Shown here one piece after another: positions 2,953 to 13,496 of a stretch of 64,000 bases of DNA. The notes beneath the pieces were generated by a model. It saw nothing but the letters and a program-made list of their open reading frames with translations. It was not told where the DNA came from and made no database searches. The stretch is from Caldilineaceae bacterium. GTDB taxonomy: Bacteria > Chloroflexota > Anaerolineae > Caldilineales > Caldilineaceae. Each line of letters opens with the position of its first letter. Positions within the stretch are counted from its first letter, which is position 1. The DNA is taken from contig JAHBVG010000003.1 of the NCBI GenBank assembly GCA_019637695.1, positions 62,001 through 126,000 on the forward strand. Direction: 5' to 3'. The translations under genes were made by a program, and so were the position numbers.

Positions 2953-4455
2953 ATGTACCCCAAGGCTGGTCTCGCCTTACTCGCTTGCTGTCTGTTACTG
3001 TTCAGCAGTGTTCTGTTTTCTGTTTATGCAGAGGAGACCGACACAGTTTACCTCCCATTCATCACAAATGGTAGCGTGCCAGTGTCTGTTACAACAACTC
3101 CGACTTTGACGGCCACACCTACCATCTTGTCTGCAACACAGACTCCGACGTTGACGGCTACGCCTACCGTTGCGTCTGCAACACAAACAAGCACGGCAAC
3201 ATCTACGGCAACCAGCACACCGTCTCAGACTGTTACTGCTACACCGACAGAAACTGCAACTGCAACTTATACATCCACCCCCACCTCAACGCAAACAGCT
3301 ACTCCTACAGCGACTGCTACGCCTAGATGTCCATATACCTGGAGTATCCCCGAATCTTTAGAAGAAGATACGGATGAGGTAGCAATAAGCCTTCAAAGTG
3401 TCGTTTTGGATTCTGAAGGCAATTTACATCTTCTTTACGCTACAGGCCCATTTGAAGGTGAAGATTATGAAATCCGCTATATATCACTTTCCTCAAATGG
3501 TATGGGATGGAGTAAACCTACCACATTGATGAAAGGAAGCGTCAGCACACCAGCGATTGCATTGGACAGTAATGACAGATTAGTTGCCTACTGGCATACT
3601 TTTCAGCCTGAACAAGCTTGGCAACCAGTTGGTATGTTTGCCTATCAGACTGAAAATAAGCAATGGACTGAACCACGGGTTATTCAAACAATATCCGGCG
3701 ATAATATCATGTCTAATCTAGCAGAATATATGCCAACCATAGCAGTAGATGGCGAAAATACTGTTCATATAGTCTGGCGTGGAAAAGGGCCGGAAGATGC
3801 ATTTCAGAATATCTTCCATACAATGCAATCTGAAGGTGACTATTGGACTCCTAGAAAAAACTTGTCTGAAGCTACTGATTCAAATAGCCAGTTTCATTTT
3901 CCCAGCATTATAACAACGCTAGATGGCAAAATTGGTATCTTCTGGGAGCGGCTTGATAGACCTTACTCTGGTACCTTCTACTCCGAGTTTGATCCCTTGC
4001 TCAACTCCTGGTCATTAACGTCAGTTGGGGCTGGGTTTAGTTACGGATTTTTCGTACCATTAGCAAAAGATGGATTTGGTAATATCTATGCCCTTATCAG
4101 GCACAATTATATTGGATGGTTCGTACGAGCCAGATCATCTTCGGGTGAATGGATCTCCCAGGAGAAACCTACTGAACGTATTTTTATGAATTCATACCCG
4201 TATAGCATGGGTTTTCAGTCCAGTGCTGACGGTACACTTCATGTCGCTTATCTGGACTCTTATTATTGTTTACCCCCGAATGCTGAAGCATGGGAGCCAG
4301 GTCAACCAGTAATAGAGACTGACAATCTTCCTTTTAGTGAAGGAATTTACCCTAATCTTCTAGTGGATCAAGAAGGTGGAATTCATATTTTGTGGCGGCT
4401 CAATAGGGGGCTTGTTTATGTAACTACTAATCATCACTACACCATCCGCCCCTAA
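2953..4455 (+). CDS. Secreted beta-propeller-like protein with Thr/Pro linker
   Basis: The start at 2953 is chosen because GGAG lies 6 bases upstream and the product then begins with a signal peptide (MYPKAGLALLACCLLLFSS, about residues 1-26). The upstream extension of the open frame lies opposite hsdR. Right after the signal comes VYLPFITNG, which resembles the C-terminal tags of the secreted proteins at 36-57 kb. A low-complexity Thr/Pro/Ala linker spans about residues 45-125. The remaining 370 residues show repeated units of the type AIALDSNDRLVAYWH and TIAVDGENTVHIVWRG, typical of BNR/sialidase-like propeller blades. The protein is probably displayed on the cell surface; its ligand or substrate is unknown. 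The gene is AT-richer than most of the window. Confidence 0.78.
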   Translation: MYPKAGLALLACCLLLFSSVLFSVYAEETDTVYLPFITNGSVPVSVTTTPTLTATPTILSATQTPTLTATPTVASATQTSTATSTATSTPSQTVTATPTETATATYTSTPTSTQTATPTATATPRCPYTWSIPESLEEDTDEVAISLQSVVLDSEGNLHLLYATGPFEGEDYEIRYISLSSNGMGWSKPTTLMKGSVSTPAIALDSNDRLVAYWHTFQPEQAWQPVGMFAYQTENKQWTEPRVIQTISGDNIMSNLAEYMPTIAVDGENTVHIVWRGKGPEDAFQNIFHTMQSEGDYWTPRKNLSEATDSNSQFHFPSIITTLDGKIGIFWERLDRPYSGTFYSEFDPLLNSWSLTSVGAGFSYGFFVPLAKDGFGNIYALIRHNYIGWFVRARSSSGEWISQEKPTERIFMNSYPYSMGFQSSADGTLHVAYLDSYYCLPPNAEAWEPGQPVIETDNLPFSEGIYPNLLVDQEGGIHILWRLNRGLVYVTTNHHYTIRP

Positions 4456-4515
4456 TACCGTTTATACAATGTTAGTTCCCTCCCCATTTTTATCGGTATA
4501 TTAAAAGGCTTAGAA

Positions 4516-4553
4516 AGAGAGCGATAGCAATAAATCCATTGCCATCGCTCTCT
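4516..4553. terminator. Bidirectional hairpin terminator
   Basis: Arms AGAGAGCGATAGCAA (4516-4530) and TTGCCATCGCTCTCT (4539-4553) pair with a single mismatch, and TGTTGTTTT follows. The hairpin sits between the convergent secreted-protein gene and the recombinase gene. Confidence 0.75.
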
Positions 4554-4563
4554 TGTTGTTTTC

Positions 4564-5505
4564 CTACAACAACGTATCCGCTGGCGAGTGTTGGGCGTGG
4601 ACTTCGCCCAGGTCTTCCTTGATCTGCTTCAGATAGCGTGTCAGCACGGGTAAGCTACCATGCCCCATCATGCGGCTCAATGAAACGAGATCCGCTCCGT
4701 TGCGCAGCATGGTGAGTGCAAAGCTACGCCGGAAGCTGTGCAATGTTGGCGCTGTGACGCCTGCCTGCTTTGCCCTTCTCCTCACAATGTCCCTCAACCC
4801 CTCATACTGAAGTCGAGTCCGTTCCCCATCCTGGTGGTGGGCTACCCATAGTGGGCGTGTGGGTTCGTCCTCTTGGCGAGTGCGCAGATAGGCAGCAATC
4901 GCTTTACGGGCCTGTCGTCCGACGAAGACGAAGCGCCCCTTGCGGTTCTTGGTCTTGTGCAGGGTGATGCTGCCATCGTTCAGGTTCACATCGGCCATGT
5001 TGAGGGATACCATTTCACTGGCTCTGAGTCCTGTGTCGAGCAGCGTCAAGAGGATGGCCTTGTCCCGTAGGCCGAGGTCGCTCTTGTCACAGGTTGCCAG
5101 CAGTGCGTTGACCGTCTCTGTGCTGACTGGATCGAGCAGGTCTTGGTCTACCTTGGGGCTGCGCATCTTTTCCAGCGGGTTGCGGTCAATGGCGTCTTCT
5201 CGGACCAGGAAACGCACAAAGGCACGCACGGCACGCCAGTAGGCATGGACACCGCCTGACTCACGGCTTTCCCCTAGATGGACGAGGAATGAGCGCAGGT
5301 GTCTGGCGGTAATCTGGGCTGGGTCGGTGACACCCTGCTCTTCCAGGTAGGCCAGGAAAGGCTTGAGCTTCCCCTCATAGAAGCCGATGGTCGCTTCGGA
5401 GCGGTTGGCTGCACGCACGTCGAGGATGAAATCTCGTAGCCAGGTATGGAGTTGGTTGGGGGTGACGATTTGTAAAATCCGTCGGGGCTGGTTTTGAGCT
5501 TGCAT
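4564..5505 (-). CDS. Tyrosine recombinase / integrase, XerC/D-like
   Basis: This 313-residue protein has the two-domain plan of tyrosine recombinases. An N-terminal SAM-like core-binding domain (about 20-115) contains EATIGFYEGKLKPFLAYL. The C-terminal catalytic domain shows the first Arg in DTGLRASEM, then HSFRRSF (H-x-x-R), MGHG and the nucleophile Tyr in LTRYLKQI. The start at 5505 is chosen because AGGAGA lies 9 bases upstream. The open frame continues another 61 codons, but those codons read backwards through tRNA-Leu. The size fits XerC/XerD or a small integrase. The gene sits 5' of the tRNA and points away from it, which is not the usual geometry of a tRNA-integrated island, so a housekeeping or integron-like role remains possible. 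Confidence 0.88.
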   Translation of the reverse strand: MQAQNQPRRILQIVTPNQLHTWLRDFILDVRAANRSEATIGFYEGKLKPFLAYLEEQGVTDPAQITARHLRSFLVHLGESRESGGVHAYWRAVRAFVRFLVREDAIDRNPLEKMRSPKVDQDLLDPVSTETVNALLATCDKSDLGLRDKAILLTLLDTGLRASEMVSLNMADVNLNDGSITLHKTKNRKGRFVFVGRQARKAIAAYLRTRQEDEPTRPLWVAHHQDGERTRLQYEGLRDIVRRRAKQAGVTAPTLHSFRRSFALTMLRNGADLVSLSRMMGHGSLPVLTRYLKQIKEDLGEVHAQHSPADTLL

Positions 5506-5588
5506 GTTGGATTCTCCTAAATGGCGCTGGGGAATACAACATATAGTGCTATCTATTTGATTGTTCACTATATCTAGTGGGTGTCTTT

Positions 5589-5672
5589 GGGTCGGTGGCG
5601 GAATGGCAGACGCAACGGACTTAAAATCCGTCGGGGAAACCCGTGTGGGTTCGACTCCCACCCGACCTACCA
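5589..5672 (+). tRNA. tRNA-Leu (anticodon TAA), CCA encoded
   Basis: The cloverleaf can be folded by hand. Acceptor arms are GGGTCGG (5589-5595) and CCGACCT (5662-5668), with a G-U pair at the first position. The anticodon stem is ACGGA/TCCGT with loop CTTAAAA, giving anticodon TAA. A variable arm suits a class II leucine tRNA. The T-arm is GTGGG/CCCAC with loop TTCGACT, followed by discriminator A and an encoded CCA. The length is 84 nt. No second copy of its 3' end was found in the window, so there is no direct evidence of an integrated element bounded by it. Confidence 0.93.
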
Positions 5673-5786
5673 ATCGTAGATGATCCACATATCCATAGTC
5701 TGCCTCGTCAGCAACGGACCATCATCGCCTTCCTCACAAGCTGACTGGCCCCACTGCCTATCCATATGCGGAAAGGGTCTGGCCCT

Positions 5787-8700
5787 ATGCCCTCCCTCGA
5801 CATCAACATGCTGCGCCAGGTGAGCGGCGTGGGCGCTTCCACCATTCGCAACCTTGTCGCCGCGGGTTACGCGTCGCTGGATGATCTCAAACCCGCCAGC
5901 GTGGAGCAACTCTCCGCCATCAGCGGCATCGGCGCGGGGACGGCCCAGGCCATTCGCGACTTTCTCGACAGGCTGGGCGAGGGCGGGGATCGCGTGCGGG
6001 TCTACCGCTACGACGAGAAGCGCAAGAACATCCCTTCGGCGGAACTGGCGGCGCAGGGACGGGTGCAGGAGCAGCCCAAGAGCCGCTACAGCTATGACCC
6101 GCACCTGCCGCCCACGCTGCGCTTTGCCGCCGACGGTTCCCCCGACCGCCTGCCCGACCTGTTGGAAACAGCCAAACAGCGCAAGTTGACCGACGACGAG
6201 GCCCGTTTGCTGGCCGACAGGTTGCGCAACCAGCAGCCCTGGCTGGAGTGGAGCGGCAAACGGGAGAAAAGTTGGTTCGACGTGGACCCGGTGGCGCTGC
6301 ACATCCACGAGCGCATCTCTGCCGAGGCGATTGTGCGATTGGCCCAACGCCAACCGTTGCAACGCTCGCTCTTTGCCGACCCCGAACTGCCCTACCAACA
6401 GGAAGTGGATTTTTACAAACACGATGTGGATTGGGCCAACCGGCTGATCTTGGGCGACTCGTTGACGGTGATGACCAGCCTGGCCCGCCGCGAGGATCTG
6501 GCCGGCAAGGTGCAGATGATCTACATCGACCCGCCCTACGGCATCAAATTTGCCTCGAACTTTCAGCCCTTTGTCAACAACCGCGAGGTGAAGGACCGCG
6601 ACCAGGACCTGACCCGCCAGCCGGAGCAGGTGAAGGCGTACCGGGATACGTGGACGCTGGGCATCCACTCGTACCTGGCCTATCTGCGCGACCGGCTGAT
6701 GGCGGCCAAAGAATTGCTCAAGCCGGAGGGCAGCATCTTTGTGCAGATTTCCGATGAGAACGTGCATCGGGTGCGGATGCTGTTAGATGAGGTGTTTGGG
6801 AACGAAAACTTTATTGCGTTGATTCCCTTTGTAACAACCAGCAGCCAGACTAGCTCTCTCTTGCCAAGCACTTCTGACTTTTTGATATGGTATGCACGAA
6901 ATCGCACAAGCATTAAATATCGACAGATCTACCTTGAAAAGGTTGCGGGTGAAACAGGCGGTTCAAAATATACGAGTACAGAGTTGGCTACAGGTGAACG
7001 ACTACCGCTAGGATTAGCAGAGGACCAGTATGAGAGGGCAAGATTGGAAAAAAGTAGAATCTTTCGCCCCAGTCCATTGGTTTCACAAAGTGGCGGAGAG
7101 TCAAGCCGCTTCCCCGTTCAAGTTTATGGGCAAGCATATGTACCAAGAACTGGTTTTTGGAAAACAAACAAAGAGGGATTCAAACGCCTCATTGATTCCA
7201 ACCGAATCGTAATAGAAGGTCGTTCACTTGCCTACGTTCGCTTTTTAGATGACTTTGCCGTGTATCCACTAAATAACTTGTGGGAGGACACATGGGGAGT
7301 ACAAAGCAGAAGCGATCCTAAAGTCTATGTAGTACAGACTGCAACGAAGATTATTGAGCGTTGTATGCTTATGACCACAGACCCCGGCGATCTGGTCCTC
7401 GACCCGACGTGCGGCAGCGGCACCACGGCCTACGTGGCCGAACAGTGGGGACGGCGCTGGATCACCATCGACACCAGCCGTGTGGCCGTGGCGTTGGCCC
7501 GGCAGCGGCTGCTCACTTCCAAATTCGACTACTACGAAAAGGAAGATCCCAGCCGTCCTCTGCACCCTGAGACCAATAAGTTTCTCTACGAGAGCGTGCC
7601 CCACATTATGCTCAGCACCATCGCCCAGTGCGCCGCCCTCGATCCCATCTTCGCTCGCTGGGAACCCGTCCTGGCCGAAAAGCTGGAACGCCTCAACCTG
7701 GCCCTTTCCACTGTGACGCCGGAAATACGCACGATCTTGCAGCGCAAATTGGCCGCCAAAGAAAAGGCCGAGGGCAGGCGTTCCATCACCGACGCCGATA
7801 CCCGCCGTTGGATTTTGCCATCCGTAGGGGTGGACCCCCGTGTCCACCCGCAGACCCCCACCGGCGACGTAGGGGTGGCCCCCCGTGTCCACCCGCAGAC
7901 CCCCACCGGCGACGTAGGGGTGGACCCCCGTGTCCACCCGCAGACCCCCACCGGCGACGTAGGGGTGGACCCCCGTGTCCACCCGAATCCCTTGTGGGTG
8001 GACCCCCGTGTCCACCCGCAAGGGCAGGCACAGGGGCCTGCCCCTACGGGCGGATGGCAGGAATGGGAAGTCCCCTTTGACACGGACCCCGATTGGCCGC
8101 AAGCGTTACAAGATGCGCTGACCGATTACCGCCAGGCGTGGCGACAGAAGATGGACGAGGTCAACGCCACGATTGCCGCCAGCGCGCCCCAGGAAACGCT
8201 GGTGGATCGTCCACGCGTCGTCAAAAACGTGGTGCGCGTCAGCGGTCCCTTCACCGTGGAAGGGGTGCAGCCCGCCGAGGAGAATCTGGATTGGACCGAT
8301 TCCCCCATCGGCGGCGCGCCGGAACCCCCCGTAGGGGCGGACCCCCGTGTCCGCCCGGATTCACATACCCGCCCGGATGCCAGTGTCCGCCCGGATTCAC
8401 ATACCCGCCCGGATGCCAGTGTCCGCCCGCAAGGGCAGGCACAGGGGCCTGCCCCTACGGGGGATGGGTTGGACCCGACCAACGCCGAAGCCTATTTCGA
8501 CCAGATGATCCGGCTGCTCAAGGAGAGCGGCATCCGCTTTTTGGGCAACAAACAGGTGAGCATCGACCAGTTGCAAGCCTACAGCGGCAGCGTCTATCTG
8601 CACGCCGAAGGCGAGTGGAACCCGCAGGAAGAGAAAACGCCTCGACGGCTGGCGGTCTCGTTTGGTCCGCAGTATGGTCCGCTGACGGCATTACAGGCAG

Positions 8701-9275
8701 AAGAAGGTCTGCGTGAGGCCTATCGACGTGGCTATGACGACATTGTTTTTGCCGGGTTCGACATTGACGGTGCAGCACAGGCAATCATCGACGCAAACAT
8801 CAACCCGCGTGTGCGTTGTCATACTGCCCGCATCAGCCCCGATGTGCTCATGGGCAATCTGCTCAAGAGCAGCGCTGCCAGCCATATCTTTACGGTCACA
8901 GGTACGCCGCGTGTGGAAGTGGAAACCATCGACGGCGACTATGTGGTGCGCATGGAAGGGATGGATGTCTACGACCCGGTGAACAATGCCATCATCCCCA
9001 CCAATGCCAACGATGTGGCGGCCTGGTTCCTCGACTGCGATTACGACGGCAAGACCTTCTGCGTCAGCCAGGCGTTCTTTCCCAAACAGGATGCCTGGGA
9101 GAAGCTGGCGCGTGCGCTCAAGAGTTTTGTCGAGCCAGAACAGTTCGCCGCCTTCTCCGGTGCCCGTTCGCTGCCCTTTGCCGTGGGCAAACACAAGCGC
9201 ATCGCCGTCAAGGTCATCGATCCACGCGGCAACGAGGTCATGCGGGTGATCCATTTGGAGGGGGTGCGGTATTGA
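5787..9275 (+). CDS. Type III-like DNA adenine methyltransferase (Mod) with internal REP arrays
   Basis: The protein has 1162 residues. An N-terminal helix-hairpin-helix domain (about 1-60) contains VSGVGASTIRNLV and ISGIGAGTAQAI. The methyltransferase follows in beta-class order: motif IV DPPY at 248-251, a target-recognition stretch at about 335-530, then motif I DPTCGSGT starting at 539. DPPY suggests N6-adenine methylation. Two insertions of tandem palindromic repeats, both in frame, lie at about residues 680-755 and 848-892 (VDPRVHPQTPTGD-type units). The C-terminal domain ends IAVKVIDPRGNEVM, the same ending as the partial gene at the right edge of the window. The start at 5787 has AAAGGG upstream; 5766 is an alternative. 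The recognition region is more AT-rich than the rest. The stop overlaps the RAYT start (TGATG), so this is the first gene of a coupled operon. Confidence 0.88.
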   Translation: MPSLDINMLRQVSGVGASTIRNLVAAGYASLDDLKPASVEQLSAISGIGAGTAQAIRDFLDRLGEGGDRVRVYRYDEKRKNIPSAELAAQGRVQEQPKSRYSYDPHLPPTLRFAADGSPDRLPDLLETAKQRKLTDDEARLLADRLRNQQPWLEWSGKREKSWFDVDPVALHIHERISAEAIVRLAQRQPLQRSLFADPELPYQQEVDFYKHDVDWANRLILGDSLTVMTSLARREDLAGKVQMIYIDPPYGIKFASNFQPFVNNREVKDRDQDLTRQPEQVKAYRDTWTLGIHSYLAYLRDRLMAAKELLKPEGSIFVQISDENVHRVRMLLDEVFGNENFIALIPFVTTSSQTSSLLPSTSDFLIWYARNRTSIKYRQIYLEKVAGETGGSKYTSTELATGERLPLGLAEDQYERARLEKSRIFRPSPLVSQSGGESSRFPVQVYGQAYVPRTGFWKTNKEGFKRLIDSNRIVIEGRSLAYVRFLDDFAVYPLNNLWEDTWGVQSRSDPKVYVVQTATKIIERCMLMTTDPGDLVLDPTCGSGTTAYVAEQWGRRWITIDTSRVAVALARQRLLTSKFDYYEKEDPSRPLHPETNKFLYESVPHIMLSTIAQCAALDPIFARWEPVLAEKLERLNLALSTVTPEIRTILQRKLAAKEKAEGRRSITDADTRRWILPSVGVDPRVHPQTPTGDVGVAPRVHPQTPTGDVGVDPRVHPQTPTGDVGVDPRVHPNPLWVDPRVHPQGQAQGPAPTGGWQEWEVPFDTDPDWPQALQDALTDYRQAWRQKMDEVNATIAASAPQETLVDRPRVVKNVVRVSGPFTVEGVQPAEENLDWTDSPIGGAPEPPVGADPRVRPDSHTRPDASVRPDSHTRPDASVRPQGQAQGPAPTGDGLDPTNAEAYFDQMIRLLKESGIRFLGNKQVSIDQLQAYSGSVYLHAEGEWNPQEEKTPRRLAVSFGPQYGPLTALQAEEGLREAYRRGYDDIVFAGFDIDGAAQAIIDANINPRVRCHTARISPDVLMGNLLKSSAASHIFTVTGTPRVEVETIDGDYVVRMEGMDVYDPVNNAIIPTNANDVAAWFLDCDYDGKTFCVSQAFFPKQDAWEKLARALKSFVEPEQFAAFSGARSLPFAVGKHKRIAVKVIDPRGNEVMRVIHLEGVRY
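7824..8051 (+). repeat. In-frame tandem REP-like array inside mod (45-bp units)
   Basis: GTAGGGG marks the unit starts at 7824, 7869, 7914 and 7959, giving a strict 45-bp (15-codon) period. Each unit contains the palindrome GGGTGGAC / GTCCACCC. A fifth degenerate palindrome follows, and the array closes with the inverted element GGGCAGGC / GCCTGCCCCTAC. The outer ends therefore read GTAG ... CTAC. The reading frame stays open throughout and encodes VGVDPRVHPQTPTGD repeats. Confidence 0.9.
8330..8462 (+). repeat. Second in-frame REP-like array inside mod
   Basis: This array begins with GTAGGGGCGGAC paired with GTCCGCCC. Two copies of a 42-bp unit of the type CGGATTCACATACCCG ... TGTCCGCC follow. 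It ends with the inverted partner GGGCAGGC / GCCTGCCCCTAC. As in the first array, the ends are GTAG and CTAC and the frame is kept. Confidence 0.88.
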
Positions 9276-10291
9276 TGAAACGACGCAAGAACAGCATACG
9301 CAAGCCGGGGTACGATTATACGAATGCGGGTGTTTACTTTGTAACCATCTGTGTCCAAGATTTCTTGCATCTGCTTGGCGCTGTCCACAGCCATGCGGAT
9401 AGGCACGAAATGGTCCTCAACGAGGCGGGGCAGATGGTTCAGCAGGTTTGGGAGAGCATTCCCCAAAAATTTCCAACAACGGCATTGGACGAAATCATCA
9501 TCATGCCCAACCACATCCACCTTCTGCTCTGGCTGGGCACCCAAACCGTAGGGGCGGACCCCCGTGTCCGCCCGCAGGCCGCAACCGGCGACGATGGGCA
9601 GGCGCGGGGGCCTGCCCCTACGGGAGCGTCGTTCGCGATTGACCCCGACGATATGACAACCGTAGGGGCGGACCCCCGTGTCCGCCCGCAGGATGCAACC
9701 TCCGACGATGGGCAGGCACAGGGGCCTGCCCCTACGGGAGCGTCGTTCGCGATTGACCCCGACGATATGACAACCGTAGGGGCGGACCCCCGTGTCCGCC
9801 CGCAGGCCGCAACCGGCGACGATGGGCAGGCACAGGGGCCTGCCCCTACGGGAGCGTCGTTCGCGATTGACCCCGACGATATGACAACCGTAGGGCCGGA
9901 CCCCCGTGTCCGCCCGCAGGCCGCAACCGGCGACAATGGGCAGGCACAGGGGCCTGCCCCTACGGGTGATGGGGTAATGATTCAACGGTATGATCCTGCA
10001 TTGGCCGATGTGATGGCATGGTTCAAGTCATTGACGACGGCAAAATACCGTCGTGCTGTCTATGAGCAGCATTGGACACCCTACAACCAGAAATTGTGGC
10101 AACGCAGCTACTACGATCATATTGTGCGCAGCGATGCGTCGCTCAACGCCATCCGTCATTACATCTGCGAAAACCCTCGACGCTGGGGATTCGATCGCTA
10201 TCATCCCAACCCACAGGGACCCGATCCAGTTGCCGTGGAAATCTGGCGACAATTGCAGGCTGAATCTAAACAGTTCAGGAAATTTTTATGA
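9275..10291 (+). CDS. REP-associated tyrosine transposase (RAYT, HUH Y1 family)
   Basis: This is a Y1 transposase-fold protein. The N-terminus (KPGYDYTNAGVYFVTICV) is typical of RAYTs. The HUH metal motif is MPNHIHLLL (His80, His82), and the catalytic Tyr is probably Tyr296 in AIRHYICENPRRWG. RAYTs excise or join REP hairpins with a 5' GTAG. The protein is 338 residues rather than about 200 because some 139 residues (about 92-231) are encoded by four 114-bp repeats that themselves look like REP/REPIN units. They lie between the HIH motif and the C-terminal helix, probably in a loop. The start codon overlaps the mod stop and the end overlaps the res start by 4 nt (ATGA), so it is translated within the R-M operon. 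Activity is unproven; the key residues are present. Confidence 0.88.
   Translation: MKRRKNSIRKPGYDYTNAGVYFVTICVQDFLHLLGAVHSHADRHEMVLNEAGQMVQQVWESIPQKFPTTALDEIIIMPNHIHLLLWLGTQTVGADPRVRPQAATGDDGQARGPAPTGASFAIDPDDMTTVGADPRVRPQDATSDDGQAQGPAPTGASFAIDPDDMTTVGADPRVRPQAATGDDGQAQGPAPTGASFAIDPDDMTTVGPDPRVRPQAATGDNGQAQGPAPTGDGVMIQRYDPALADVMAWFKSLTTAKYRRAVYEQHWTPYNQKLWQRSYYDHIVRSDASLNAIRHYICENPRRWGFDRYHPNPQGPDPVAVEIWRQLQAESKQFRKFL
9548..9966 (+). repeat. Four 114-bp REPIN-like tandem units inside the RAYT gene
   Basis: GTAGGG marks the unit starts at 9548, 9662, 9776 and 9890, an exact 114-bp (38-codon) period; the last unit is partial. Each unit has a 5' GTAG followed by a hairpin (GGGCGGAC / GTCCGCCC), a spacer, then an inverted second hairpin (GGGCAGGC / GCCTGCCC) ending CTAC. 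The spacer between units encodes ASFAIDPDDMTT. Units differ by single bases, such as GGGCCGGAC in the fourth. Confidence 0.92.
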
Positions 10292-13278
10292 GTGGCAAAC
10301 GTACAGGCGATACCACCCAGGAACCGCTGACCATCCAGCCGGTCAACCGTCCCATCTTGTCCAGCCCCTATGTAGAACCGCAAAAGCACTGGGTTTACGA
10401 CACCGACACGGGGCTGGCCCACATTGCCGAAGGACGGCGACCAGCCTCCTTCCTCTTCCGCTACCAGACGCCCACCGCCAAAGCCCAGTATCAGCAGTCG
10501 CTCTTTTTAGAAGAGGAGATGGAAGAGCTGCCGCTGGTCAACGCCCTGCGCCAGGATATTCGAGGCTGGCGCAACCGCGACTACGAGGGCGCCACGGAGA
10601 TCACCAAACAGTTGCTGCGCCATTGGGGGCGAGCGGATCGCCCGCGCCGTCTCTTTTTCTGCCAATTGGAAGCCGTGGAGAGCGTCATCTTCCTCAACGA
10701 GATCCGGCTGAGCGGCAAGTTCTTCCGCGGCAAACCTAACTTCACCGACGAACACTTGAGTACCCTCTGGGACACCCCGGCGGATCCTTCCTTTCCTCTG
10801 CTGCGGCGGATGGGGGTGAAGATGGCGACCGGCTCTGGCAAGACGGTGGTGATGTCGATGTTGATCGCCTGGGCCTTCTGCAACCGCGGACAGGTTGCCA
10901 GCGATGATCGCTTCCCCTCGGCAGTGCTGGCCGTCTGCCCCAACCTCACCATCAAAGAGCGCTTGCAGGTGCTGCGTCCCGACAATCCCGCCAACTACTA
11001 CGAACGCTTCGATCTGGTCCCCACCAAACTGCGTCCCCTACTCCAAAGCGGCAAGGTGTTGGTGGAAAACTGGCATCTCTTTCTGCCTGAATCGGAACAC
11101 GCCGAAGGGGGGCAGAGCTACGCCGTGGTCAACAAAGGACCGGAAGGGCCGGAGGCCTATGCGCGCAAGCGGCTGGGCGATCTCTTCGAGCGTGCGCCGG
11201 TGATGCTCCTCAACGACGAGGCGCACCATGCCTGGCGACCGGCTGCGCTGCTCAACGGCGTTGCCAGCGACGTGGACCAGGAGGAGTGGCAGGAGGCCAC
11301 GGTCTGGGTCAACGGCCTGGACATGATCAACCTTGGGGCGAACAACGGCGAAGGGATCAAGTTCTGTGTGGATCTGTCGGCGACTCCTTTTTATATTGGC
11401 GGCAGCGGCTACACCGAAGGACAGCCCTACCCGTGGATTGTCAGCGATTTTGGACTGGTGGACGCCATTGAGAGCGGCATTGTCAAGATCCCCCGCCTGC
11501 CGGTCAGCGACACCACAGGACGGCCCGAAGCCAAGTTCTTTCACCTGTGGCGCAACATTGTCGACAATCTGCAACCGGGGGAACGTCTGCCGGGCAAGGG
11601 ACGCAAGCCCAAGCCCGATGTGATCTATCGGGAAGCGCACGACGCCCTCACCACCTTAGCCAGCCAGTGGAAAGAGCGCTACGGCTACATTGAGGCCGCC
11701 TCCAATGTGCAGGAGAAGACACCGCCGGTGATGATCGTGGTCTGTGACAACACCGACCTTGCCGAAGTCTTCTACCGGCATATTTCGGGCGAGTACGAGG
11801 AGAAATATACCGACGAAGAGGGCAAGGAGCAGAAGCGGGTCCTCTACCGGGGCAGCGAGATTTTGCCTGAATTCAGCAACAGCGAGCATTTCAAACCGAC
11901 TGTGCGCATTGACAGCAAACTGCTGGCCCAGGCCGAAAGCGCCGATCTCAGCCGCGAAGATGCCGCCGAGCAGTTGCGTCAGATTGTGGCGACCGTGGGC
12001 AAACCCGGCGAACCCGGCGAGCATGTGCGCTGTGTGGTCTCTGTCGCCATGCTCACCGAAGGTTGGGACGCCAACAATGTCACCCACATTTTGGGGCTGC
12101 GCGCCTTTGGCAGCCAATTGCTCTGTGAACAGGTGGTGGGCCGCGGTCTGCGCCGTATGGACTACACGCCCGACCCGCAGACGGGGATGCTCACCGAGGA
12201 GTATGTGGATATCTACGGCGTGCCCTTCAGTTTGATCCCTTTCAAGGGACGCAAACCCAAAGAAACCACCATCGAGGACAGGCCAAAAAATCACGTGCGC
12301 AGTCTGGACGAACGGGCGCACTACCGCATCGAGTTCCCCGTGGTGGAGGGCTACGCCTTTGCGCTCAAACGCAACGCTATCAAAGCAGACGTGGCGCAGA
12401 TCGAGCCACTGCGCATCCAGCCGGAAGCGAACCCTACCTCTGTCTTCGTCAAGCCGCGCGTCGGCTACGAGAGCGGATCCATCTCGTTGGCCGGTCCTGG
12501 CGAGTTTGCCGAGCAGGATCGGCAGGCATTCTACGACAGCACCCATATCCAGACCCTCAAATTCCAGATTGCCGGGGAGATTGTCTTTCAGATGGTGGGC
12601 GAGGATGGGGCGATCCGTAACGGCGAAGCCAACAAGCGCTATGTCTCCCGCCACCAGTTGTTCCCCCAGGTCTTTCGCATTGTGGACGCCTATGTGGAGA
12701 ATCGTATCGACTTCCGCGCAGTGGACCGGCGCGAGCTTGGCCTGAAGCGCTACTTTGATCTGGTGGTGGAACGGCTCATGCAAGCTATCCGTCCTGATGA
12801 CGGCCAGGGAGAGTCACCACTGCTGCCCATCCTCAACCGTTACCAGCCCAAAGGCAGCACCGATGGTGTCAACTTCACCACGACCCGGCCCATCTTCAGC
12901 ACCCATTTCAGCCACATCAACGCCGTGGCTGCGGATACGGCTACCTGGGAACAGTCGGCGGCCTTCCGTCTGGAACAAGCGGCCATGCGCGGCATCATCG
13001 AATGCTACGCCCGCAACGACAACCTCGACTTCACCATTCCCTACGAATTCCTGGGCGTCAGCCACCACTACGAACCCGACTTCCTGGTTCGCTATCCTGG
13101 GCAGAAGACGCTGATCCTCGAAATCAAGGGATGGCAGAAAGAAGAAGCCGCCACCAAACACGAAGCGGCCAAGCGCTGGGTCAGTGCGGTGAACAACTGG
13201 GGCAAGATGGGTCAGTGGGCGTTTCATGTGAACAAAGATCCGCAGTTGTTGTTGGGGGAGTTGGGTGGTCTTACATGA
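10288..13278 (+). CDS. Type III restriction subunit Res (helicase-nuclease)
   Basis: The 996-residue protein has the superfamily 2 motor and C-terminal nuclease expected of Res subunits. Walker A is ATGSGKT at about 180-186. Motif II is DEAHHAW at 310-316. The second RecA lobe includes VAMLTEGWDANNVTHI and EQVVGRGLRRMDY (motif VI). The C-terminal PD-(D/E)XK site is visible as Asp931 in EPDFLV and Glu945/Lys947 in LILEIKGW. With Mod it would form a complex that translocates or slides on DNA and cuts between inverted sites. It starts with ATGA overlapping the RAYT stop and its own stop overlaps the next start, so the four genes are coupled. No frameshift is visible and the length is normal for the family. 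Confidence 0.92.
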   Translation: MSGKRTGDTTQEPLTIQPVNRPILSSPYVEPQKHWVYDTDTGLAHIAEGRRPASFLFRYQTPTAKAQYQQSLFLEEEMEELPLVNALRQDIRGWRNRDYEGATEITKQLLRHWGRADRPRRLFFCQLEAVESVIFLNEIRLSGKFFRGKPNFTDEHLSTLWDTPADPSFPLLRRMGVKMATGSGKTVVMSMLIAWAFCNRGQVASDDRFPSAVLAVCPNLTIKERLQVLRPDNPANYYERFDLVPTKLRPLLQSGKVLVENWHLFLPESEHAEGGQSYAVVNKGPEGPEAYARKRLGDLFERAPVMLLNDEAHHAWRPAALLNGVASDVDQEEWQEATVWVNGLDMINLGANNGEGIKFCVDLSATPFYIGGSGYTEGQPYPWIVSDFGLVDAIESGIVKIPRLPVSDTTGRPEAKFFHLWRNIVDNLQPGERLPGKGRKPKPDVIYREAHDALTTLASQWKERYGYIEAASNVQEKTPPVMIVVCDNTDLAEVFYRHISGEYEEKYTDEEGKEQKRVLYRGSEILPEFSNSEHFKPTVRIDSKLLAQAESADLSREDAAEQLRQIVATVGKPGEPGEHVRCVVSVAMLTEGWDANNVTHILGLRAFGSQLLCEQVVGRGLRRMDYTPDPQTGMLTEEYVDIYGVPFSLIPFKGRKPKETTIEDRPKNHVRSLDERAHYRIEFPVVEGYAFALKRNAIKADVAQIEPLRIQPEANPTSVFVKPRVGYESGSISLAGPGEFAEQDRQAFYDSTHIQTLKFQIAGEIVFQMVGEDGAIRNGEANKRYVSRHQLFPQVFRIVDAYVENRIDFRAVDRRELGLKRYFDLVVERLMQAIRPDDGQGESPLLPILNRYQPKGSTDGVNFTTTRPIFSTHFSHINAVAADTATWEQSAAFRLEQAAMRGIIECYARNDNLDFTIPYEFLGVSHHYEPDFLVRYPGQKTLILEIKGWQKEEAATKHEAAKRWVSAVNNWGKMGQWAFHVNKDPQLLLGELGGLT

Positions 13279-13496
13279 CGACGCAAACCCCAAGGATGCT
13301 TGAAAGGCTTGGCTTTTCCACAACGCATTATGTTCTGGGAAGAGGGTCAATTGCCCACTTGTTCCCAAAAGATGAACGCTGCGGCATCTATGTCTTGCAC
13401 TTTACAGATGGCGGGTTCTATATTTTGGGGGGATACGGAATAGGCCAGCTCATTGTATACTCCTCCGTACCGCCCTCTGCCATTTTTACCCTATAA
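13275..13496 (+). pseudogene. Truncated GIY-YIG nuclease-like ORF
   Basis: The ATG overlaps the res stop (ATGA), giving a 73-residue frame. Residues 36-52 (RCGIYVLHFTDGGFYIL) match the first strands of a GIY-YIG nuclease domain. The expected continuation (YIGQA followed by a helix with the catalytic Arg) is replaced by GGYGIGQLIVYSSVPP and a stop. It looks like the start of a companion nuclease gene that was cut by a rearrangement. The next gene, a SnoaL-like protein, begins only 10 bases later, which suggests a join point near 13440. It could also be translated as a short peptide without nuclease activity. Confidence 0.6.

Follow-up and report, generated by a model that had tools for sequence, protein, structure and literature searches.

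A RAYT-type gene nested between mod and res of a predicted type III restriction-modification operon in a Caldilineaceae bacterium

We analysed a stretch of 64,000 nucleotides from a Caldilineaceae bacterium (Chloroflexota; assembly GCA_019637695.1, contig JAHBVG010000003.1, positions 62,001 to 126,000), referred to here as the window, in which a gene for a RAYT (REP-associated Y1/HUH transposase; REP, repetitive extragenic palindrome) lies between the two genes of a predicted type III restriction-modification (R-M) operon. The three genes, mod, RAYT and res, follow each other on the forward strand, nested by overlaps of 1 and 4 nt, as a sequence-only reading of the window had pointed out and as can be read directly from the letters, and all three have intact catalytic motifs. 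The operon comprises the following features (BIME, bacterial interspersed mosaic element):

5787..9275, + strand: mod, type III N6-adenine DNA methyltransferase with an N-terminal HHH domain (PF01555, 1.3e-28; PF14520; PADLOC MTase_III, 4.6e-176)
7824..8047, + strand: first in-frame GTAG-REP array in mod (four forward units, one degenerate, one reverse)
8331..8458, + strand: second in-frame REP array in mod (forward unit, degenerate 18-nt repeats, reverse unit)
9273..9277, + strand: mod/RAYT junction TGATG, in which the A of the mod stop codon TGA (9273-9275) is the first base of the RAYT ATG at 9275 (1-nt overlap)
9275..10291, + strand: RAYT, 338 amino acids (Y1_Tnp match, motifs, fold)
9548..9963, + strand: in RAYT, from the HUH to the Tyr motif, four in-frame tandem BIME units of 114 nt (a forward and a reverse GTAG REP)
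10288..10291, + strand: RAYT/res junction ATGA, in which the RAYT stop codon overlaps the res ATG at 10288 (4 nt)
10288..13278, + strand: res, BPTD_3080-family restriction endonuclease (NCBIfam NF046055, 4.5e-280, above the curated cut-off)

Mod carries the DPPY motif and the DPTCGSGTT (S-adenosylmethionine) motif expected of a type III methyltransferase, and a further in-frame ATG is present at 5766. In Res, the helicase motifs and the PD-(D/E)xK residues D931, E945 and K947 are invariant in an alignment with eight relatives. With both subunits bearing the sequence hallmarks of their class, the system is assigned to type III and is predicted to restrict and methylate DNA.

The middle gene is described here as RAYT-type, an assignment that rests on motifs, fold and REPs. 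The HUH motif is found at residues 80-82 and the Y296-x3-NP motif at 296-301, and H80, H82, Y296, N300 and P301 are invariant across 18 RAYTs. The confident core of the AlphaFold model matches the IS200/IS605 Y1 transposases 2xm3 and 2vih and the REP-bound RAYT 4ER8, with low TM-scores for the query, a third of whose chain is predicted to be disordered. The NCBIfam model REP_Tyr_transpos gives 47 bits, below its curated cut-off of 80, a shortfall explained by the divergence of this RAYT group and by the REP insert, which interrupts the domain. The gene thus resembles the known RAYT/TnpA-REP systems (E. coli YafM, PDB 4ER8; REPtron) in its HUH and Tyr motifs, its Y1 fold and the GTAG-tagged palindromes nearby, and differs from them in its nesting within an operon and in having the REPs within the RAYT and mod open reading frames (ORFs). 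Instead of standing inverted on both sides of the RAYT gene, the GTAG REPs are found inside it and upstream in mod, with none downstream in the window.

Fifteen GTAG-tagged palindromes (nine forward, six reverse; none expected by chance) are present within mod and RAYT, each predicted to fold into a GTAG foot and an 8-bp hairpin, and, with up to 3 mismatches allowed, no further GTAG REP was found in the rest of the window. All 15 begin in the same codon phase, in frame, and the repeat periods (114 nt in RAYT, 45 nt and 18 nt in mod) are all multiples of three. In RAYT, REPs encode about 140 of the 338 residues, and the REP-encoded segment at residues 101-226 is predicted to be disordered (AlphaFold pLDDT, the per-residue confidence score, below 50). 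The reading frames stayed open through these expansions, which suggests that both proteins are made. Searching the genome with the shared GTAG-palindrome pattern returned 30 matches, 11 of them at this locus, and none with the reversed pattern as control; cognate-type GTAG palindromes are therefore present in the genome and are candidate substrates of the window RAYT. Of the related RAYT ORFs, 36 of 70 (for example L199, L205, L208, L230 and L236) also have a GTAG/GTGG hairpin in the stretch from the HUH to the Tyr motif, against 4 after codon shuffling. As judged from these sequences, this RAYT group commonly has an internal REP in the HUH-Tyr loop, the window being an expanded case, and RAYT genes may carry their own substrate. 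Palindromic repeats that remain open and in frame in protein genes have precedents in intragenic REPs, already reported within ORFs (PMC3733652), and in Rickettsia palindromic elements; here, the repeats fill both a RAYT loop and a linker of the partner methyltransferase.

The sequence-only reading had held that an accidental insertion would be expected to break coupling, that the tight fit pointed to a stable member of the operon, and that related operons lacking the RAYT should be compared, a comparison which we carried out. The nearest operon (L073, genome G314, from the window's family), with res 71% and mod 63-67% identical, has neither a RAYT nor a REP insert in mod, residues 679-753 of mod, with the first REP array, being absent there, and its mod and res overlap by 8 nt. 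The next nearest operon (L074, 58%) has no RAYT either. We therefore rejected the possibility that the mod-RAYT-res order is inherited; since the closest relatives have no RAYT, the gene is, on this comparison, a later arrival that entered after the operon split from them. Because mod and res overlap already in RAYT-free relatives, tight fit alone is no proof of function. The sequence GGAGG just 5' of the RAYT start occupies the place of the res ribosome-binding site in L073, so that the RAYT would have taken over the start site of res.

We then consider how often a gene occupies this position. As evidence that would speak against its proposal, the sequence-only reading had named a failure to find the order in any other genome; a scan for res relatives (80 loci) did find it. 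In a Thermodesulfobacteriota metagenome-assembled genome (MAG; locus L110), mod, RAYT and res are arranged in the same order with overlaps of 4 and 14 nt, and this RAYT also has in-frame REPs. Two genomes from the same family as the window (G097 and G117; loci L315 and L316) have the reversed order res-RAYT-mod, with a RAYT from another group, which in G097 is flanked by REP arrays on both sides. At that locus (L315, 6380-7860), GTAG REPs provide the stop codons of res and RAYT (CAG TAG GTG...), and the REP arrays fill both gaps. A RAYT-like gene, antisense and below the Pfam threshold, is present at the same position in a Verrucomicrobia locus (L109).

Several close relatives of the BPTD_3080-family type III-like systems (NF046055) resemble the window in that res comes after mod, the two genes overlapping or almost doing so in these relatives, and differ in what lies between, a RAYT in the window and toxin-antitoxin or nuclease genes in other relatives. 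One or more extra genes separate mod and res in 12 of the 20 closest relatives in which both genes are visible (L093-L114), among them genes for a PD-(D/E)xK protein, AAA plus DUF4276, a DUF4143 ATPase and HicAB-like proteins; GmrSD, nucleotidyltransferase, IrrE-type and PARIS-like genes are found there in other relatives. Since many relatives hold such varied genes at this point, the mod-res junction appears to act as a cargo slot. A second BPTD_3080-like system of the window's genome, outside the window (L314, 7215-8736, - strand, contig C85), has AbiEi/AbiEii between res and mod, the position taken by the RAYT in the two family members.

A gene-neighbourhood search, which the sequence-only reading had also proposed, shows that RAYTs recur in or against R-M operons both in the class and in other phyla. 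The core sample consisted of the RAYTs of the class most similar to the window RAYT, with about 5 kb on each side where contigs allowed, and gave 70 usable loci, most of them on MAG contigs; genes were called by a simple longest-ORF method, and three loci in which two RAYTs were joined by gene calling (L212, L229 and L233) were excluded from the counts. In 17 of the 70, the RAYT lies in or against methylation-based defence genes. Most of these are type I (L086, L198, L199, L200, L201, L207, L208, L211, L226, L227, L230, L238 and L245); the others are a BREX (bacteriophage exclusion) locus from the window's genus with the order brxC-RAYT-pglX (L077; BrxC E=0, PglX 5e-271), an Hma system with HmaB-RAYT-HmaC (L205), a type IIG system (L251) and a PDC-S02 restriction-like gene (L195). 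The PglX gene of the BREX locus (4022-7000, +) contains a long in-frame tandem repeat (GHEVGQDHPAY), an echo of the repeat-laden mod of the window. Among the 104 immediate neighbours of RAYTs, HSDR_N is the most frequent Pfam family (10), with N6_Mtase (6) and Methylase_S (5) near the top. The expected frequency by chance is about 1.4e-4 per neighbour, some 690 times below that observed (from 84 HSDR_N hits in 150 genomes, with 4000 genes per genome assumed).

As a control, 30 IS200 TnpA loci of the same class were inspected, and no such defence family was seen among their 53 neighbours (25 of 31 families listed), so we rejected a pattern general to any Y1 transposase within the families so listed. 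The difference between 17/70 RAYT and 0/30 IS200 loci is significant (p = 0.002, Fisher), as it is when one non-adjacent IS200 hit is counted (17/70 against 1/30, p = 0.011, Fisher). Another RAYT sample, picked with the NCBIfam model, gave 4 R-M-linked loci out of 30, and a third, drawn from 44 genomes across many phyla (30 loci), included hsdS-RAYT-hsdR in Casimicrobiaceae, hsdM-hsdS-RAYT-hsdR in Brocadia, where hsdR is preceded by two small ORFs on the opposite strand, and a RAYT-HmaB fusion. When the census was made from the side of hsdR in the class, a RAYT was found within 1.5 kb in 9 of 30 hsdR loci, directly upstream of hsdR in eight, and three of the nine overlap with the RAYT sample. 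Taken together, these gene neighbourhoods show a recurrent association of predicted RAYTs with R-M and related systems, across several defence types and phyla.

These genes show a bias in strand and position. Neighbours of R-M-linked RAYTs lie on the same strand as the RAYT in 26 of 27 cases, against 37 of 59 for other RAYTs (p = 6e-4), the lone exception being in L201, where a spurious ORF runs antisense over hsdR. In 14 of the 15 type I operons readable on both sides, the RAYT sits at the boundary between the restriction gene and the modification/specificity genes, and in one between M and S. Nested overlaps occur here as well (4 nt on both sides in L208, 4 and 13 nt in L199, 1 nt upstream in L201). 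In a tree of 130 RAYT rows, the 28 R-M-linked RAYTs require 22 label changes, against 25.7 in shuffles, and at least 14 of the 22 are forced by well-supported branches; the window RAYT groups beside RAYTs that are not linked to R-M, and only small R-M groups appear co-inherited (for example L226/L227/L230 and L298/L316). A single RAYT clade dedicated to R-M was rejected, the labels being scattered over the tree, and RAYTs were, by this phylogeny, probably recruited to R-M many times independently, with few short co-inherited lines.

In the orthologous G097/G117 pair, the ratio of nonsynonymous to synonymous substitution rates (dN/dS) is 0.10 for RAYT, 0.09 for res and 0.17 for mod; the value of 0.10 shows that the predicted RAYT protein is maintained by purifying selection in this pair. 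The description of the window RAYT as a stable operon member therefore holds in part: the gene behaves as an integrated one, with recurrent order and overlaps, conserved orientation and purifying selection, and it is not ancestral, given the RAYT-free operons L073 and L074 and its place in the tree.

RAYT domains also occur in frame within larger genes. We identified ten long ORFs of this type, of which eight encode DNA methyltransferases (DUF1156 in four cases, type III Mod in two and type IIG-like in two, by Pfam or reading), one is a valyl-tRNA synthetase and one could not be named with certainty. The Y1_Tnp domains in DUF1156/HmaB-like, type III Mod and type IIG ORFs are those of L362, L364, L366, L354, L363, L365, L368 and L370. 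In the valyl-tRNA synthetase ORF (L367, 1606-5724, - strand), the RAYT domain spans residues 616-748 with no stop codon and would represent an insertion, either intein-like or tolerated, within an essential gene. The fusions as a whole strengthen the link to methyltransferases. Because RAYTs are also carried in frame within housekeeping genes, embedding alone is no proof of a role in defence.

From these observations, we consider it reasonably probable that the window holds a restriction-linked RAYT, an intact gene for a predicted HUH/Y1 single-stranded DNA endonuclease that entered late at a type III mod-res junction and uses the operon transcript and the stop/start overlaps. The junction between restriction and modification genes would be an open cargo slot, entered repeatedly by RAYTs, and an insertion would survive only where translation of the downstream gene is preserved, the RAYT being expressed through the operon transcript and the overlaps. 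As to why the gene persists, the explanation that leads, held at somewhat less than even confidence, is that the RAYT is a sheltered tenant, which would gain expression and co-transfer from a mobile, hard-to-lose operon. Several points weigh against this account. A pure tenant would be expected equally in other operons, yet the enrichment is in methylation-based defence genes, which favours a role in defence, and eight of the ten in-frame fusions are with DNA methyltransferases, though one is with ValS. The Fisher tests rest on just 30 control loci, several loci are small MAG contigs, and the core sample was picked by similarity to the window RAYT, a bias from which the hsdR-side census is free. 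The nearest empty site is only about 71% identical, so that the insertion breakpoints are unreadable.

An active role in defence is quite possible, if held with less conviction than tenancy. The RAYT would be a functional accessory in the manner of PrrC, an HUH single-strand nuclease acting when restriction is blocked, or on hairpins or single-stranded ends of invading DNA. The breadth of the association (type I, III, IIG, BREX and Hma), the near-constant boundary position in type I loci, the purifying selection on RAYT, the in-frame methyltransferase fusions and the toxin or defence modules among other genes of the slot all argue for it, as does the precedent of type I loci, which are known to carry PrrC and the rlo genes (PMC12707154, PMC2610378, PMC3874165). 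On the other hand, the nearest operons manage without a RAYT, many unrelated RAYT lineages are in place with no dedicated clade, no interaction or sensing domain was seen, and ValS, too, carries a RAYT in frame. For the more specific proposal of the sequence-only reading, that the RAYT couples restriction with hairpin processing or with the mobilisation of REPs, we found no evidence, and it is still a guess. A broader generalization, that RAYTs are working parts of methylation-based defence, as a domesticated HUH single-strand nuclease common to type I, III, IIG, BREX and Hma systems, where it would cut phage DNA in hairpin or single-stranded form or step in when the restriction enzyme is blocked, is possible and somewhat doubtful. 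If true, it would explain a host benefit from RAYTs, which persist for long without an agreed one, and the link to R-M, BREX and Hma gives a concrete target that can be tested.

Alternatively, the RAYT and its REP hairpins could be a cis-acting spacer or attenuator, through which restriction would be expressed less, or later, than modification. REP palindromes form stable hairpins and would separate M from R in the transcript, RAYTs stand at the boundary of restriction and modification/specificity genes, and the res start is now within the RAYT stop. Nevertheless, we regard this as improbable: both gene orders occur (the order R-RAYT-M in L198, L245, L315, L318 and L320), which makes a cis-regulatory role less likely, RAYT codons are under a purifying selection that a spacer would not need, and an internal REP is missing from about half of the RAYT ORFs. 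That a single neutral insertion without wider meaning explains the locus is very improbable, for although no other copy of the exact order was seen at close distance and the nearest relatives are RAYT-free, the neighbour enrichment, the strand and position bias, the repeated nested overlaps and the recurrence in other phyla largely refute it. Tenancy in a slot at the R/M junction remains the reading that we favour.

The closest parallel is provided by PrrC and rlo, also extra genes embedded within R-M operons (PMC3874165, PMC2610378), as are those of the window and of the recurrent loci. PrrC differs in being an anticodon nuclease with a demonstrated link to EcoprrI, whereas the gene found here is that of a predicted HUH/Y1 DNA nuclease, and RAYTs extend to type III, IIG, BREX and Hma systems. 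Neither GTAG REPs nor RAYTs are new, and GTAG repeats have been reported in Chloroflexi. Our literature search, which left subscription papers largely outside so that a prior mention is possible, found no report of RAYTs in R-M operons, and the word 'restriction' is absent from two RAYT surveys (PMC6006769, PMC2817692); within the literature searched, the link between the RAYT and R-M gene families was not known before. The boundary between restriction and modification genes, a slot common to toxin-antitoxin, nuclease and RAYT genes, may thus be a practical place to seek new defence accessories.

Three further features adjoin the operon:

13275..13496, + strand: ORF of 73 amino acids, 4-nt overlap with res, no family support
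4564-5688, - strand: tyrosine recombinase (PF00589, 5e-31), directly upstream of the R-M operon
5589-5672, + strand: tRNA-Leu(TAA) gene abutting the tyrosine recombinase, directly upstream of the R-M operon

The small ORF had been taken for a GIY-YIG fragment overlapping res; the overlap is there (the res stop codon and the ATG at 13275 share ATGA, 4 nt), and the GIY-YIG identity found no support, since the ORF has no match in Pfam, NCBIfam or PADLOC and no homologue among 150 genomes of the class. On the other side, a duplicated end of the tRNA-Leu gene was looked for as an island boundary and none was found in the window. A tyrosine recombinase beside a tRNA gene is the usual edge of a genomic island, and the presence of both next to the operon is consistent with a mobile island.

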